Below the pieces are notes generated by a model. It was given only the letters and a program-made list of their open reading frames with translations. It was not told the DNA's origin and made no database searches. This document shows positions 1 through 8,678 of a stretch of 26,007 nucleotides of DNA, in pieces; positions within the stretch are counted from its first letter, which is position 1; each line of letters starts with the position of its first letter. The stretch spans positions 1 through 26,007 of IMG/VR virus record IMGVR_UViG_3300010354_000554; one strand, 5' to 3'. This stretch comes from a virus. The position numbers were made by a program, and so were the translations under genes.

Positions 1-426
1 CTGGATGGCATTTTCTTGATTGAAAAATCCTGCTCTTTGAGTAAAACCTACTGGGTTCTCGGAAAATGATGCAGTAAATCTACCAACTACACCTTGTCCT
101 GGACGATATCTAAGAAAGTTATTACTTCTTATAACACCATAAGAGTTTGCATCTGTTCCACATCCAACCTTGAAAGTATTGTTTTCGTGAGTTGCAATTC
201 CACTATTAGAATACTTAAAAGTCTCAAAGTTTCTTGGATCTAATCCGTAAATTGCATCACCTTGAATTTTAGGTGTGAGTGGAATTGCTAAATTCTCCCC
301 AAATGCAGATTTAGAACAAGCACTCTCATTTAAAAGGTTTCCATACTCATCAGCACGAATATAAACCTCGTGAAGGGTTCTTTCCTGGTTCAGATAGTCT
401 TGTGTGGATTTATTCCAAATTGCCAT
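1..426 (-). CDS. Probable virion structural protein, N-terminal 142 residues (runs off left edge)
   Basis: The reading frame starts at an ATG at 426 and stays open to base 1, giving 142 residues that begin MAIWNKSTQDYLNQ. The start lies 3 bases after the stop of the 105-residue gene, so it is probably translated from the same message. The visible part has no signal peptide or membrane segment. A stretch at about residues 105-130 (RYRPGQGVVGRFTASF, then GFTQRAGFF) resembles a motif I associate with marine phage structural or fibre-like proteins, but I cannot name the family with certainty. It is not recognisable as prohead protease gp21, which T4 encodes soon after gp20. That it is a real gene is well supported by the long open frame and operon spacing. 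The virion role is inferred from context. Confidence 0.7.
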   Translation of the reverse strand, partial: MAIWNKSTQDYLNQERTLHEVYIRADEYGNLLNESACSKSAFGENLAIPLTPKIQGDAIYGLDPRNFETFKYSNSGIATHENNTFKVGCGTDANSYGVIRSNNFLRYRPGQGVVGRFTASFSENPVGFTQRAGFFNQENAIQ

Positions 427-429
427 AAA

Positions 430-747
430 TTAAATCCATTCTAACTTTGATGGATGATATCTTTTAGTATCTTTAATATTAATATTTCTATCTATTGCTG
501 GATAAATTTGATGAACAATTGCACCTGGATATTCATTTTGCAGTTGCTCACCTAAATCTTGTTTTGAGGGAACTCCATTTTTTGTGGTTAGTTCCATTCT
601 ATAAAGACTCCCATTCCACAAAACATCTGCAACATATTCTTCACCAACTGATTGCGGTTCTGGTTGGGAAGAATTGATATAAAGATTTCCGGTAAAATCA
701 CCGGAAATATTTACAGACTCTGAGATGAATTGCTTAAAGGATTTCAT
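430..747 (-). CDS. Conserved small phage protein with capsid-targeting-like leader; candidate internal head protein
   Basis: This 105-residue protein starts MKSFKQFISES, which closely matches the 10-residue capsid targeting sequence of T4 internal proteins IPI-IPIII (MKTYQEFIAE or MKTYQEFITE). T4 prohead protease gp21 cuts that leader after the final Glu. Cleavage after Glu10 (ISE/S) would leave about 95 residues. Residues 38-80 form a small domain with W44, Y49, LQ at 69-70 and YPG at 73-75; a diverged copy lies in the 401-residue protein between the terminase genes. The C-terminus ends KRYHPSKLEWI. The start codon overlaps the stop of the 53-residue gp67-like gene (ATGA), so translation is coupled. 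The gene lies two downstream of the portal, roughly where T4 has gene 68, a prohead core protein. Packaging into the head is an inference from the leader and the location. Confidence 0.85.
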   Translation of the reverse strand: MKSFKQFISESVNISGDFTGNLYINSSQPEPQSVGEEYVADVLWNGSLYRMELTTKNGVPSKQDLGEQLQNEYPGAIVHQIYPAIDRNINIKDTKRYHPSKLEWI

Positions 748-905
748 TCTTCCTCTTCGGTTTCGATATTGAACATTGAATCTGCTACTATAGGACGAAA
801 TTCATCAATTTTTTCTGCAGATTTTGTAAAAAGAAGTTCTTTAATCTTATCACTAATCTGTGAAGGGGATTCGTCAGCGGCAATCATATCCAGTAGATCA
901 TCCAT
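744..905 (-). CDS. gp67: gp67-like prohead core protein (small)
   Basis: This 53-residue frame starts at the first ATG (905) after an in-frame stop and ends at a TGA that overlaps the next start (ATGA at 747-744). The product begins MDDLLDMIAADESPSQ, continues as a short amphipathic helix (ISDKIKELLF), and ends in an acidic tail (ETEEEE). T4 gp67 is also a very small protein encoded directly after portal gene 20. It has a short helical part of similar pattern and a much longer acidic tail, and it is part of the prohead scaffold core. The call rests on position, size, acidity and weak resemblance. A perfect TATAAATA late promoter core lies 28 bases upstream. An alternative is an unrelated small protein of the portal cluster. 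Confidence 0.6.
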   Translation of the reverse strand: MDDLLDMIAADESPSQISDKIKELLFTKSAEKIDEFRPIVADSMFNIETEEEE

Positions 906-933: not shown

Positions 934-941
934 TATTTATA
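934..941 (-). promoter_or_regulatory. T4-type late promoter core, perfect TATAAATA, upstream of gp67-like gene
   Basis: Read on the minus strand, the eight bases are exactly the T4 late promoter core TATAAATA. The TAA stop codon of the portal gene (939-937) sits inside it, as TA-TAA-ATA. The gp67-like start is 28 bases downstream, a plausible leader length. In T4, such promoters are read by host polymerase carrying gp55 and gp33 with the sliding clamp. Whether this phage uses identical factors cannot be seen here. Confidence 0.7.
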
Positions 942-2619
942 TCTCACCACCCTTGGGCATTTCTGCTGCTTTAGCGTTTACTTGGGTCGCGGATGCATTA
1001 ATTTCTGGTTCCATTACTGGTTGCCCCAGATCCATTTGAGAAGTTTGGTCTAAAGGCATACCAGTCGTTGGATCTACTGGTGCATTGGGGTCTGGAATAA
1101 TTCCATCTTCAATCTCTTTTTTAATAAGAGCATCTTGCTCAACGATTTCAATATCAGTTTGTCTCAGCACTTTTCTTCTGACATAATCTTGAGAAAAATA
1201 CCTTCCAACATAAGGTTCTGCAATTTGAACCATATTCAGTCTCTCGTTGAGCAACTCCGCATCCTTTAGTTCTGCAAAATGGTTATCGTATAAGAAATCA
1301 TATTGAATATGCTCATCCATCTGCAACCAATCTTCTGGTGTGATTATATTTTTTAGAATGAGTTGAGTTCTCAACATATCACTGAACATATGAGAAAATC
1401 TCTTTCTCAAACGAGCAACAAACTTGCTGAACTTTACTTCATCTCTCAGTATTTCAGATGAACGTCCAAGATTAAATCCACCTTCACCATCCATTCTGGA
1501 TGGAGGAACATTCAGGGAACGGTAAAGTTTTTTCTTAAAATATTCAATATCAGTAATTTCTCCTAGATTTTGACCACCTGGAAGTGTAGAAATTTCAGTC
1601 CCTCTACCACCTTCTCTTCTTGGAAGCCAAAAATCCTCAAGCATCGCCATGAACTTCTTATCATCACGAATTTCGCCAGTGCTTGCATCATATACCTGTT
1701 TATTACGATATCGCATCATCACATCGCGAAGATACTGCTCCGCTTTCACTTTTGGTAGATTGCCCACATCAATATAAAAAATTCTTCTTTCGGGTGCTCT
1801 GGAAAGGCGATAAATTACTAGAGAATCTTCAATCATACGAAGTTGATTGAGAGACTTGATTGCTTTATGTAGATATGAAAGAGTTGAACCTTTATTTCTA
1901 TCTACAAGACCTGAAGTACAATAAGTTATAGAATCACTTGTCATTCTTATTCCAGAATTTGACCCACCCAAACCTCCAGGAGCTGGAGTTCCGGTTGGAT
2001 AAGTCATTTTTGGTTCATAGATAAAATATTCTTCAATTTCAGGAAAATCATAATCCATTGGATTATCAATATTCCTATTGGAAATTCTGTACTTATCACC
2101 TTCTTTTTTCTTTGCCTGACGAACATAACGCATTTTCATTGCGTCAATATATCTCAACTCCTGTATTCCTGCCTCAGGATTTTTTAGATCAATGACTTTG
2201 TGATAATAAAGTCTCCCATCAACATACCAATTTCTATAAATTTCGTGAGATTTTTTATCAAAATCTAAAAGTTCCAGAATATATTTAAATTCCTGTCTAA
2301 TTTTCTTTTTGATCCCGTCACTTGCATTTAAGTTGTCTAAATCAATCTGGACGGGACTATCATTAGTATCACTCACAATTGCTTCATTTACAATATCTTC
2401 AATAGCACTATCCACTTCTGGATGGAGTGCCATTTCTCGATATCTTTTGATAAGATCAAATTCTGTTCTATATACCCCCTCAATATCTACATACGAACCA
2501 AAAAAACCACTACTTAGGTAATGGTCAACCCCGTCCTCCTTATTTGGAGGAACGGGAGAAACTACACCTGGAGATAATGGTTCGTTATCATCAATAGAAA
2601 AACCAAAAAGTTTCGCCAT
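937..2619 (-). CDS. gp20: Portal vertex protein of the head
   Basis: The 560-residue product is the T4-family portal, which forms the dodecameric ring at one capsid vertex through which DNA is packaged and to which the neck binds. It is slightly longer than T4 gp20 (524). It is easily recognised from stretches typical of marine T4-like gp20, such as SGFFGSYVDIEGVYRTEFD near residue 37, ITYCTSGLVDRNKG near 233, the region around SLVIYRLSRAPERRIFYIDVG, and GFNLGRSSEILRDEVKF. This is the gene widely used as a marker for marine cyanomyoviruses. The last ~60 residues are a low-complexity Pro/Met/Gln-rich tail that differs among relatives. It follows gp19 closely, with a late promoter core 30 bases upstream of the start. 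I see no strong ribosome binding site close to the ATG. Confidence 0.97.
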   Translation of the reverse strand: MAKLFGFSIDDNEPLSPGVVSPVPPNKEDGVDHYLSSGFFGSYVDIEGVYRTEFDLIKRYREMALHPEVDSAIEDIVNEAIVSDTNDSPVQIDLDNLNASDGIKKKIRQEFKYILELLDFDKKSHEIYRNWYVDGRLYYHKVIDLKNPEAGIQELRYIDAMKMRYVRQAKKKEGDKYRISNRNIDNPMDYDFPEIEEYFIYEPKMTYPTGTPAPGGLGGSNSGIRMTSDSITYCTSGLVDRNKGSTLSYLHKAIKSLNQLRMIEDSLVIYRLSRAPERRIFYIDVGNLPKVKAEQYLRDVMMRYRNKQVYDASTGEIRDDKKFMAMLEDFWLPRREGGRGTEISTLPGGQNLGEITDIEYFKKKLYRSLNVPPSRMDGEGGFNLGRSSEILRDEVKFSKFVARLRKRFSHMFSDMLRTQLILKNIITPEDWLQMDEHIQYDFLYDNHFAELKDAELLNERLNMVQIAEPYVGRYFSQDYVRRKVLRQTDIEIVEQDALIKKEIEDGIIPDPNAPVDPTTGMPLDQTSQMDLGQPVMEPEINASATQVNAKAAEMPKGGEI

Positions 2620-7472: not shown

Positions 7473-8678
7473 TTAATTGCAGTTCCAACGACGGAGTGCT
7501 TTATTTATTCTTGAATCTGGATCTCTAGCAGTCTCGGCAGAAGTCAATCTCTTTTTCATTCCAGACATTCGACTACAAAATGATTTGCGTCTTTCTGCTC
7601 TTTTCCCTTCTGGATTTTTTTCAGTTACTGCAGTTTGGAGTTTTGAACCCGGATTTTCTCTACGATATGCCTTAACTGCAGCAGGACTTAATCCATCAGT
7701 TTTATCTTGACGATTTACTTTTTGCCAATCTTCTCCCATTGTCTTCACGTAGTTTTTATTTGGGCCCAGTTTGCCAAAACTTCCTCCCTGGGGTCCGAAT
7801 GCTTGAATAAGTGGTTGTCCTGGTTGAATTTCGGATACCGAATGATAAAGAACGTTACACCCGGGATATACTTTTTGCAATTCATCATTAATATCTTTAC
7901 GGGTAGGAAGTTTTGCTTGTGGGAAAAACATCCTGAGAGAATAGTACTTTGCTCTCCAAGAAAGAGTAACTGCAATTACGTTACCAGTTTGTGATTGAAG
8001 ACGTGTTGCTTCCTCAATCTGCGACTTAAATCCTTTAATTGGATCTGGTTGAATCAAATCAATAATTTCTGCAAAGGAATCTCCATTCAAATCTTCAATT
8101 GTTGTGTTCTCTTCCTTATAATTTTTTGCTTTTGAAACACCTTTTGATGGGACGCAATTTGGAACTTTCTTGCCATTTTTGAGTTTCATTCCAACTTGAG
8201 TATAACCTTTCCAGCAAGGATCTTCTTCGGTTAATTTCCTACGAAGTAGATGTTCTTTTAATTTTGCTGGCATTGAAAATATGTCCCAGTAAGTTGATCC
8301 ATATTTACATTCACTTCTCGTTTCTACTTTTTTGCATTTCGGACAGTATCTTTTATCATAATCAGCATGAATTCCGCGAGTTGGCGGCATATGGACAGGA
8401 GAATCTACATCTCCCAATGCTGCACCATAATCTTCTTTTACATCTTTATATTTCTTGTGATTCTTTTTTGCATCTGCTTCCATTTTTTTTAGGCGAGAGT
8501 AATAATCGGGAATTTCATCTAGATGTTGAAGAGCAATATCCATAGCAAGTTTATGGTCTTTTGTATGTTCATGCTCAATAGGTTCTCCCATATCAAGCTG
8601 TTTTTGAATAAAAGAAACCTCAAGACGATGTTTCCTTGCAATTTGCTCAACAGTTTTATGGGATTTCAGTTTGGGCAT
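7473..8678 (-). CDS. Multidomain protein of unknown function between terminase subunits (DUF5661-like and DUF6321-like ends)
   Basis: The 401-residue protein looks like a mosaic. Residues 1-70 match a DUF5661-type pattern (GEPIEHEHTKDHKLAMDIAL, then HLDEIPDYYSRLKKME). Residues 112-124 carry CPKC and a further Cys, possibly metal-binding. Residues 152-176 (EDPCWKGYTQVGMKLKNGK, VPNCVP) are a motif I know from assorted phage proteins. Residues 235-280 are a domain with W241, LQ and YPG (271-273), shared with the 105-residue protein near gp20. Residues 326-400 are a basic Cys/Arg-rich DUF6321-type end (RRKSFCSRMSGMKK, TARDPDSRINKALRRWNC). Lys/Arg richness suggests nucleic-acid contact. Lying between gp16 and gp17, it may help packaging or be a virion component, but neither role is established. 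Family names are from memory and need a profile search. Confidence 0.85.
   Translation of the reverse strand: MPKLKSHKTVEQIARKHRLEVSFIQKQLDMGEPIEHEHTKDHKLAMDIALQHLDEIPDYYSRLKKMEADAKKNHKKYKDVKEDYGAALGDVDSPVHMPPTRGIHADYDKRYCPKCKKVETRSECKYGSTYWDIFSMPAKLKEHLLRRKLTEEDPCWKGYTQVGMKLKNGKKVPNCVPSKGVSKAKNYKEENTTIEDLNGDSFAEIIDLIQPDPIKGFKSQIEEATRLQSQTGNVIAVTLSWRAKYYSLRMFFPQAKLPTRKDINDELQKVYPGCNVLYHSVSEIQPGQPLIQAFGPQGGSFGKLGPNKNYVKTMGEDWQKVNRQDKTDGLSPAAVKAYRRENPGSKLQTAVTEKNPEGKRAERRKSFCSRMSGMKKRLTSAETARDPDSRINKALRRWNCN
7502..7509 (-). promoter_or_regulatory. Possible late promoter core AATAAATA inside the end of the 401-residue gene, before gp17
   Basis: The minus strand reads AATAAATA over codons for Arg-Ile-Asn-Lys near the C-terminus of the upstream protein, about 45 bases before the gp17 start. 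Because it is inside a coding region, the match may simply reflect the protein sequence. Its position is right for a gp17 promoter. Confidence 0.3.

Follow-up and report, generated by a model that had tools for sequence, protein, structure and literature searches.

The N-terminus of a small marine cyanophage protein, 105 aa long and encoded near the portal gene of an uncultured virus, probably forms a working capsid-targeting leader of the phage T4 type, judging from its sequence, and most likely this leader directs the protein into the prohead core, where it would be cut after Glu10. In the mechanism that we propose, the first ten residues would act as a T4-type capsid-targeting sequence (CTS), docking the protein on the prohead core during head assembly; the phage gp21 protease would then cut after Glu10 and leave the mature domain, of 95 aa, within the head. 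The larger point beyond this protein is that the leader recurs in cyanophages. We think it probable that a shared T4-type N-terminal code (approximately MK[ST]F..F[IL].E) serves T4-like cyanophages, and numerous uncultured T4-like phages as well, in loading a large and varied set of proteins into their heads; NMNAT-like enzymes, SAM lyases and ADP-ribosyltransferases would be among those loaded for delivery at infection. T4-like cyanophages and other T4-like phages would use the same leader for unrelated cargo, which would comprise NMNAT/cytidylyltransferase-like enzymes, SAM lyases, ADP-ribosyltransferase-like proteins and small uncharacterised proteins.

The leader gene, its family and its neighbourhood

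The window analysed here is the whole record of the uncultured virus, 26,007 bases in length, and gp21, gp22 and gp23 were therefore taken from relatives. The following features of the window are relevant (a slash marks a cut):

1..426, minus strand: first part of a virion structural protein (phrog_1645), truncated where the window ends; adjoins the leader gene
430..747, minus strand: 105-aa leader-bearing protein, phrog_1742 (complement ORF 747-430, ATG start, plus stop)
493..642, minus strand: core domain, about residues 36-85; beta-beta-alpha-beta in the AF2 model; common to the 401-aa protein and S-SCSM1_29
718..747, minus strand: 10-residue capsid-targeting-like leader MKSFKQFISE, with a predicted gp21 cut after Glu10 (ISE/S)
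744..905, minus strand: 53-aa acidic-tailed protein (phrog_14164 / 2088), between the portal and leader genes
937..2619, minus strand: portal protein gp20 (Portal_T4, 8.5e-193)
7473..8678, minus strand: 401-aa mosaic protein (DUF5661, a leader-protein-like domain and DUF6321), between gp16 and gp17

The protein starting MKSFKQFISES that a sequence-only reading of this DNA had singled out is real and is encoded on the minus strand, with the N-terminus MKSFKQFISESVNISGDFTGNLYIN. It is a member of phrog_1742 (E 1.5e-39), a family without an assigned function, and gave no match in Pfam. Homologues turn up in 139 phage records, every one of them named as a cyanophage, and in no fewer than 313 stretches of IMG/VR; a hunt for remoter relatives of the family with a further alignment mostly returned the same contigs. 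The relatives that we examined begin MK[ST][FY]..F[ILM]SES, and the alignment of the leader across homologues, which that reading had suggested as a check, has the positions F4, F7, I8 and E10 kept in all of them. Mean column identity is 92% over residues 1-11, 91% over residues 12-25 and 69-79% over the remainder. Since residues 12-25 are as conserved as residues 1-11, the conserved block extends past the leader, and the leader could belong to a bigger N-terminal structure.

In the T4 IPIII leader, positions 4 and 7 chiefly set targeting and positions 8 and 10 processing (review, PMC9026906), and F4, F7, I8 and E10 of the 105-aa protein match these determinants. With the leader MKTYQEFIAE in the T4 record that we scanned, it has M1, K2, F7, I8 and E10 in common, along with an aromatic residue at position 4. 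The T4-type likeness first noticed from the sequence alone is borne out both by the functional positions of IPIII and by conservation across the family. Across 14 phage genomes, a strict leader pattern matched 34 of 6,525 start-like ATGs versus 4 of 9,849 internal ones (Fisher p = 2.6e-10); at these rates, a set of 20 genes should contain about 0.008 leaders by chance. With both strands of the window scanned, the leader pattern matches the 105-aa protein and nothing else; the scanned phages have several leader genes per genome, and the matches of the T4 genome itself are two internal proteins and the product of gene 61.1.

The stop of the 53-aa gene overlaps the start of the leader gene (ATGA) in the window. 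Three near-complete relatives (G001-G003, 156-223 kb) share the order gp19, gp20, 53-aa gene, leader gene, phrog_1645-type gene, 184-aa gene, gp21, gp22 and gp23, with gp21 near the leader gene, whereas S-SCSM1, S-T4, Syn33, S-SRM01 and S-SZBM1 have the leader gene between gp16 and gp17. The earlier placement of the gene next to the portal gene therefore holds for the window and G001-G003, with the 53-aa ORF in between, and fails for the five other cyanophages: the portal neighbourhood is specific to the clade of the window. A phrog_1645-type protein adjoins the leader gene in G001-G003 and in S-SZBM1 (MAIWNKKEQDFLNQERSLFE), and its S-SZBM1 homologue (S-SZBM1_190) is virion-detected. As the two genes are adjacent at both locations, they seem to have moved together as a pair. 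The 53-aa neighbour was considered as a homologue of T4 gp67, which it resembles by eye, and this was set aside as unsupported by BLAST or Pfam.

Leaders on unrelated proteins

We searched IMG/VR with a degenerate DNA pattern for MK[ST..]FK[QE]F[ILMFV]xE and grouped the protein parts after residue 11 into families by BLAST. At least 126 sites were recovered, at least 120 of them followed by an ORF of 45 aa or more, and the median number of in-frame codons upstream of the sites is 8 among the matches listed. The leader-bearing proteins belong to at least 46 unrelated families besides phrog_1742, as against a control pattern of equal composition and scrambled order, which found 22 sites in IMG/VR, all in one gene family. 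That control family starts MK[ST]KFELFLETKGL and comes from 22 phage contigs (L444-L465). Further, the residue after the presumed cut was left free by the search pattern, and among the matches listed it is Ala or Ser in 36% of the families versus 13% at positions 12-40 (p = 2e-5).

Among the cargo that could be recognised behind these leaders are SAM lyases (PF23780), proteins resembling cytidylyltransferases or ADP-ribosyltransferases, and proteins with DUF5661 or DUF6321; the NMNAT/cytidylyltransferase-like enzyme carries the leader in 11 of the 12 cyanophage-type genomes scanned. SAM lyases (PF23780) with the leader occur in uncultured phages (L281:1441-2151, L274:1921-2421 and L304:4015-4725), and these may be packaged anti-restriction proteins with a role parallel to that of T4 IPI. 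Four mutually unrelated leader-bearing genes lie within 3 kb of a 14-kb contig (L309:6505-9422), apparently as a cargo cluster. A 372-aa protein of KVP40 (L176:16073-17191) with a weak PARP match begins MKNLKSFMEE and is a possible packaged ADP-ribosyltransferase. As a sign of T4-like origin, gp21 was looked for in 20 leader-bearing fragments and is present in 6, approximately as expected for 1.07 Mb if the source genomes are about 190 kb. This is a weak test, and little could be learned from the control contigs because of their shortness.

Protease sites, virion proteins and the fate of the mature domain

Where T4 gp23 has FLTE/A, its known cleavage site, gp23 of the 12 cyanophage-type genomes has LxE or a close form (LTE/A, LSE/A, LME/S, LAE/A, LHE/A, LTE/T, LNE/T and LNE/V), and gp22 holds many gp21-type sites. 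The sequence-only reading had called for matching cleavage sites in the head proteins of the same phage, and across this phage group gp23 keeps LxE or a close form, with ISE/S of the leader being of the same type. Three gp21-type xxE motifs are kept in the phrog_1742 alignment itself, at residues 8-10, about 34-36 and 65-67 (L65 and E67 invariant).

For virion evidence we turned to three T4-like cyanophages with published virion mass spectrometry, S-SCSM1, S-SZBM1 and S-CREM2; detection in S-SCSM1 was taken from GenBank 'virion protein' labels, which number 48 versus the 45 proteins given in the paper. The NMNAT/cytidylyltransferase-like protein is both leader-bearing and virion-detected in all three: S-SCSM1_91 (leader MKSFLQFLKEA; PMC9602691), S-SZBM1_140 (MRFRQFIIEA, one residue shorter; PMC9146016) and S-CREM2_gp154 (MKNFSSFLTEA; PMC10665884). 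The same is true of four further S-CREM2 proteins, namely gp6, a SAM hydrolase/SAM lyase (Pfam S-AdoMet_lyase), gp14, a kinase with a GTG start, and the hypotheticals gp13 and gp136. The passages of these papers that we consulted treat virion carriage without naming the leader and leave undecided whether the NMNAT-like enzymes, the SAM lyase and the kinases are cargo or contaminants; the leader on them argues for head loading over contamination, and a simple test follows from it. S-CREM2 gp12 (L236:7704-10313), annotated as a Cas9 nuclease and virion-detected, contains a stretch like the leader, LRFASFMAEA at residues 17-26, with a short extension in front of it, and gave no Pfam match.

The association of leader and virion detection is statistically modest. 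With the broadest pattern it stands at 4 of 9 (p = 0.07, not significant), because S-CREM2 gp175 and a short S-SZBM1 ORF also matched, and with M[KR] required, a condition borrowed from T4 but imposed post hoc, at 5 of 8 (p = 0.009). Two other values, p = 0.027 for the set without gp175 and p = 0.002 for a relaxed set chosen post hoc, are superseded by these. In S-CBWM1, which is not T4-like, the NMNAT is a virion protein (per PMC10665884) without a leader; hence, packaging of such enzymes is not always leader-dependent.

As for the homologues of the 105-aa protein itself, S-SCSM1_30 is without a virion protein label in GenBank, and S-SZBM1_191, with six predicted tryptic peptides of 7-30 aa, is missing from the published virion table, as is S-SZBM1_192, which is leader-bearing too. 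This absence may mean that the protein is low-copy, or that it belongs to the core and disappears at maturation without being ejected. Of the earlier proposal, the capsid-targeting reading of the leader is well supported, and the other part, an ejected internal head protein, is less supported, with homologues undetected in two virion proteomes.

The AF2 model of the 105-aa protein is weak (mean pLDDT 61.6), with residues 1-14 below 50 and outside the confident part. By hhalign, residues 31-81 align with the family of the 401-aa mosaic protein (E 6e-5, probability 64%), whose S-SCSM1 homologue, S-SCSM1_29, is virion-annotated. Foldseek matched the model to viral DUF6321 proteins and to the 517-aa S-SCSM1 virion protein (ORF29) with E of 0.001 to 0.01; no solved structure in the PDB matches it. 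DUF5661 and DUF6321 are each also found directly behind a leader elsewhere (L269, L319 and S-SZBM1_192).

We infer the targeting and cleavage of the 105-aa protein from these data, and its later fate could take two forms, both of them sub-cases of the CTS explanation. In the first, the leader brings the protein to the prohead core, where it serves for a time as part of the core or scaffold, functionally like T4 gp67/gp68; gp21 cuts it at several sites, and it leaves the head before DNA packaging without being ejected. The two virion negatives, together with the conserved internal gp21-type motifs, keep loss as core in play, and in the window's clade the gene sits in the gp20-gp21 interval, where T4 has gp67 and gp68. 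However, no sequence kinship with gp68 was seen, the gene lies elsewhere in most annotated relatives, the 65-67 site falls within a predicted helix and is perhaps kept for folding, and the domain also occurs in the virion-annotated S-SCSM1_29; we regard this fate as quite possible, if short of probable. In the second, the mature domain is kept in the head, ejected with the DNA and acts early in the host like T4 IPI-IPIII. This would agree with the other leader-bearing virion proteins, which resemble host-takeover or anti-defence enzymes (SAM lyase, NMNAT-like, kinase), but the 105-aa protein has no enzyme-like family or fold match, its gene keeps to the company of genes for the head and virion, and the same virion negatives count against it, so that we would put ejection somewhat below an even chance. 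It is improbable that the N-terminus is merely part of the fold or a shared translation-start preference with a coincidental likeness to the T4 CTS: conservation is just as high over residues 12-25, and the BLAST alignment with the 401-aa protein spans the leader region (IKGFKSQIEEA), a segment that could therefore go back to a common ancestor, but the leader heads dozens of unrelated families versus one for the scrambled control, the profile comparison with the 401-aa family covers only residues 31-81, and the model leaves the first 14 residues at low confidence.

Wider meaning and comparison with known systems

We found no earlier report of capsid-targeting leaders in cyanophages in the open-access papers searched, and a review of the T4 head has already put forward the idea that T4-like phages load varied proteins by means of CTS-like leaders. 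The capsid-targeting leader that we favour would extend this T4 principle to an abundant group of ocean viruses. If true, the code would let the injected protein set of uncultured phages be read from sequence alone. The leader also makes it possible to draw up lists of proteins that uncultured marine phages are candidates to inject.

Among known systems, T4 gp67 and gp68 are comparable in position, as the leader gene of the window's clade likewise lies in the gp20-gp21 interval among head genes. They differ in that no sequence relation was found and in that the gene lies elsewhere in other cyanophages. The suggestion of a gp68-like scaffold did not hold up: T4 gp68 starts MLLIPETHELVLENV, without the leader, adjacency to the portal gene is confined to the window's clade, and phrog_1742 had no match in the T4 record. 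The NMNAT-like virion proteins of S-SCSM1, S-SZBM1 and S-CREM2 share the same kind of leader and are likewise encoded by T4-like phages, whereas the mature enzyme is unrelated to the 105-aa protein.

In T4 itself, the product of gene 61.1 (54 aa, function not assigned; L160:18966-19130) begins MKTFKEFIKE, a leader nearer to that of the cyanophages than the T4 internal protein leaders are, and no homology to the 105-aa protein was detected past it; from this N-terminus it looks like an unlisted capsid-targeted protein. The T4 internal proteins are found in the mature virion, of which the 105-aa protein is a candidate component. Their mature domains are unrelated to its own by BLAST: once the leader is taken off, the T4 leader proteins do not cluster with phrog_1742, nor do the T4 internal proteins cluster with one another. 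Within the leader, the 105-aa protein differs from IPII and IPIII in having F for Y at position 4 and K for Q at position 5. It shares with them the equal length, the M-K start, an aromatic residue at position 4, F7, I8, E10 and a small residue after the cut site, and its phage group likewise has gp21 and gp23.
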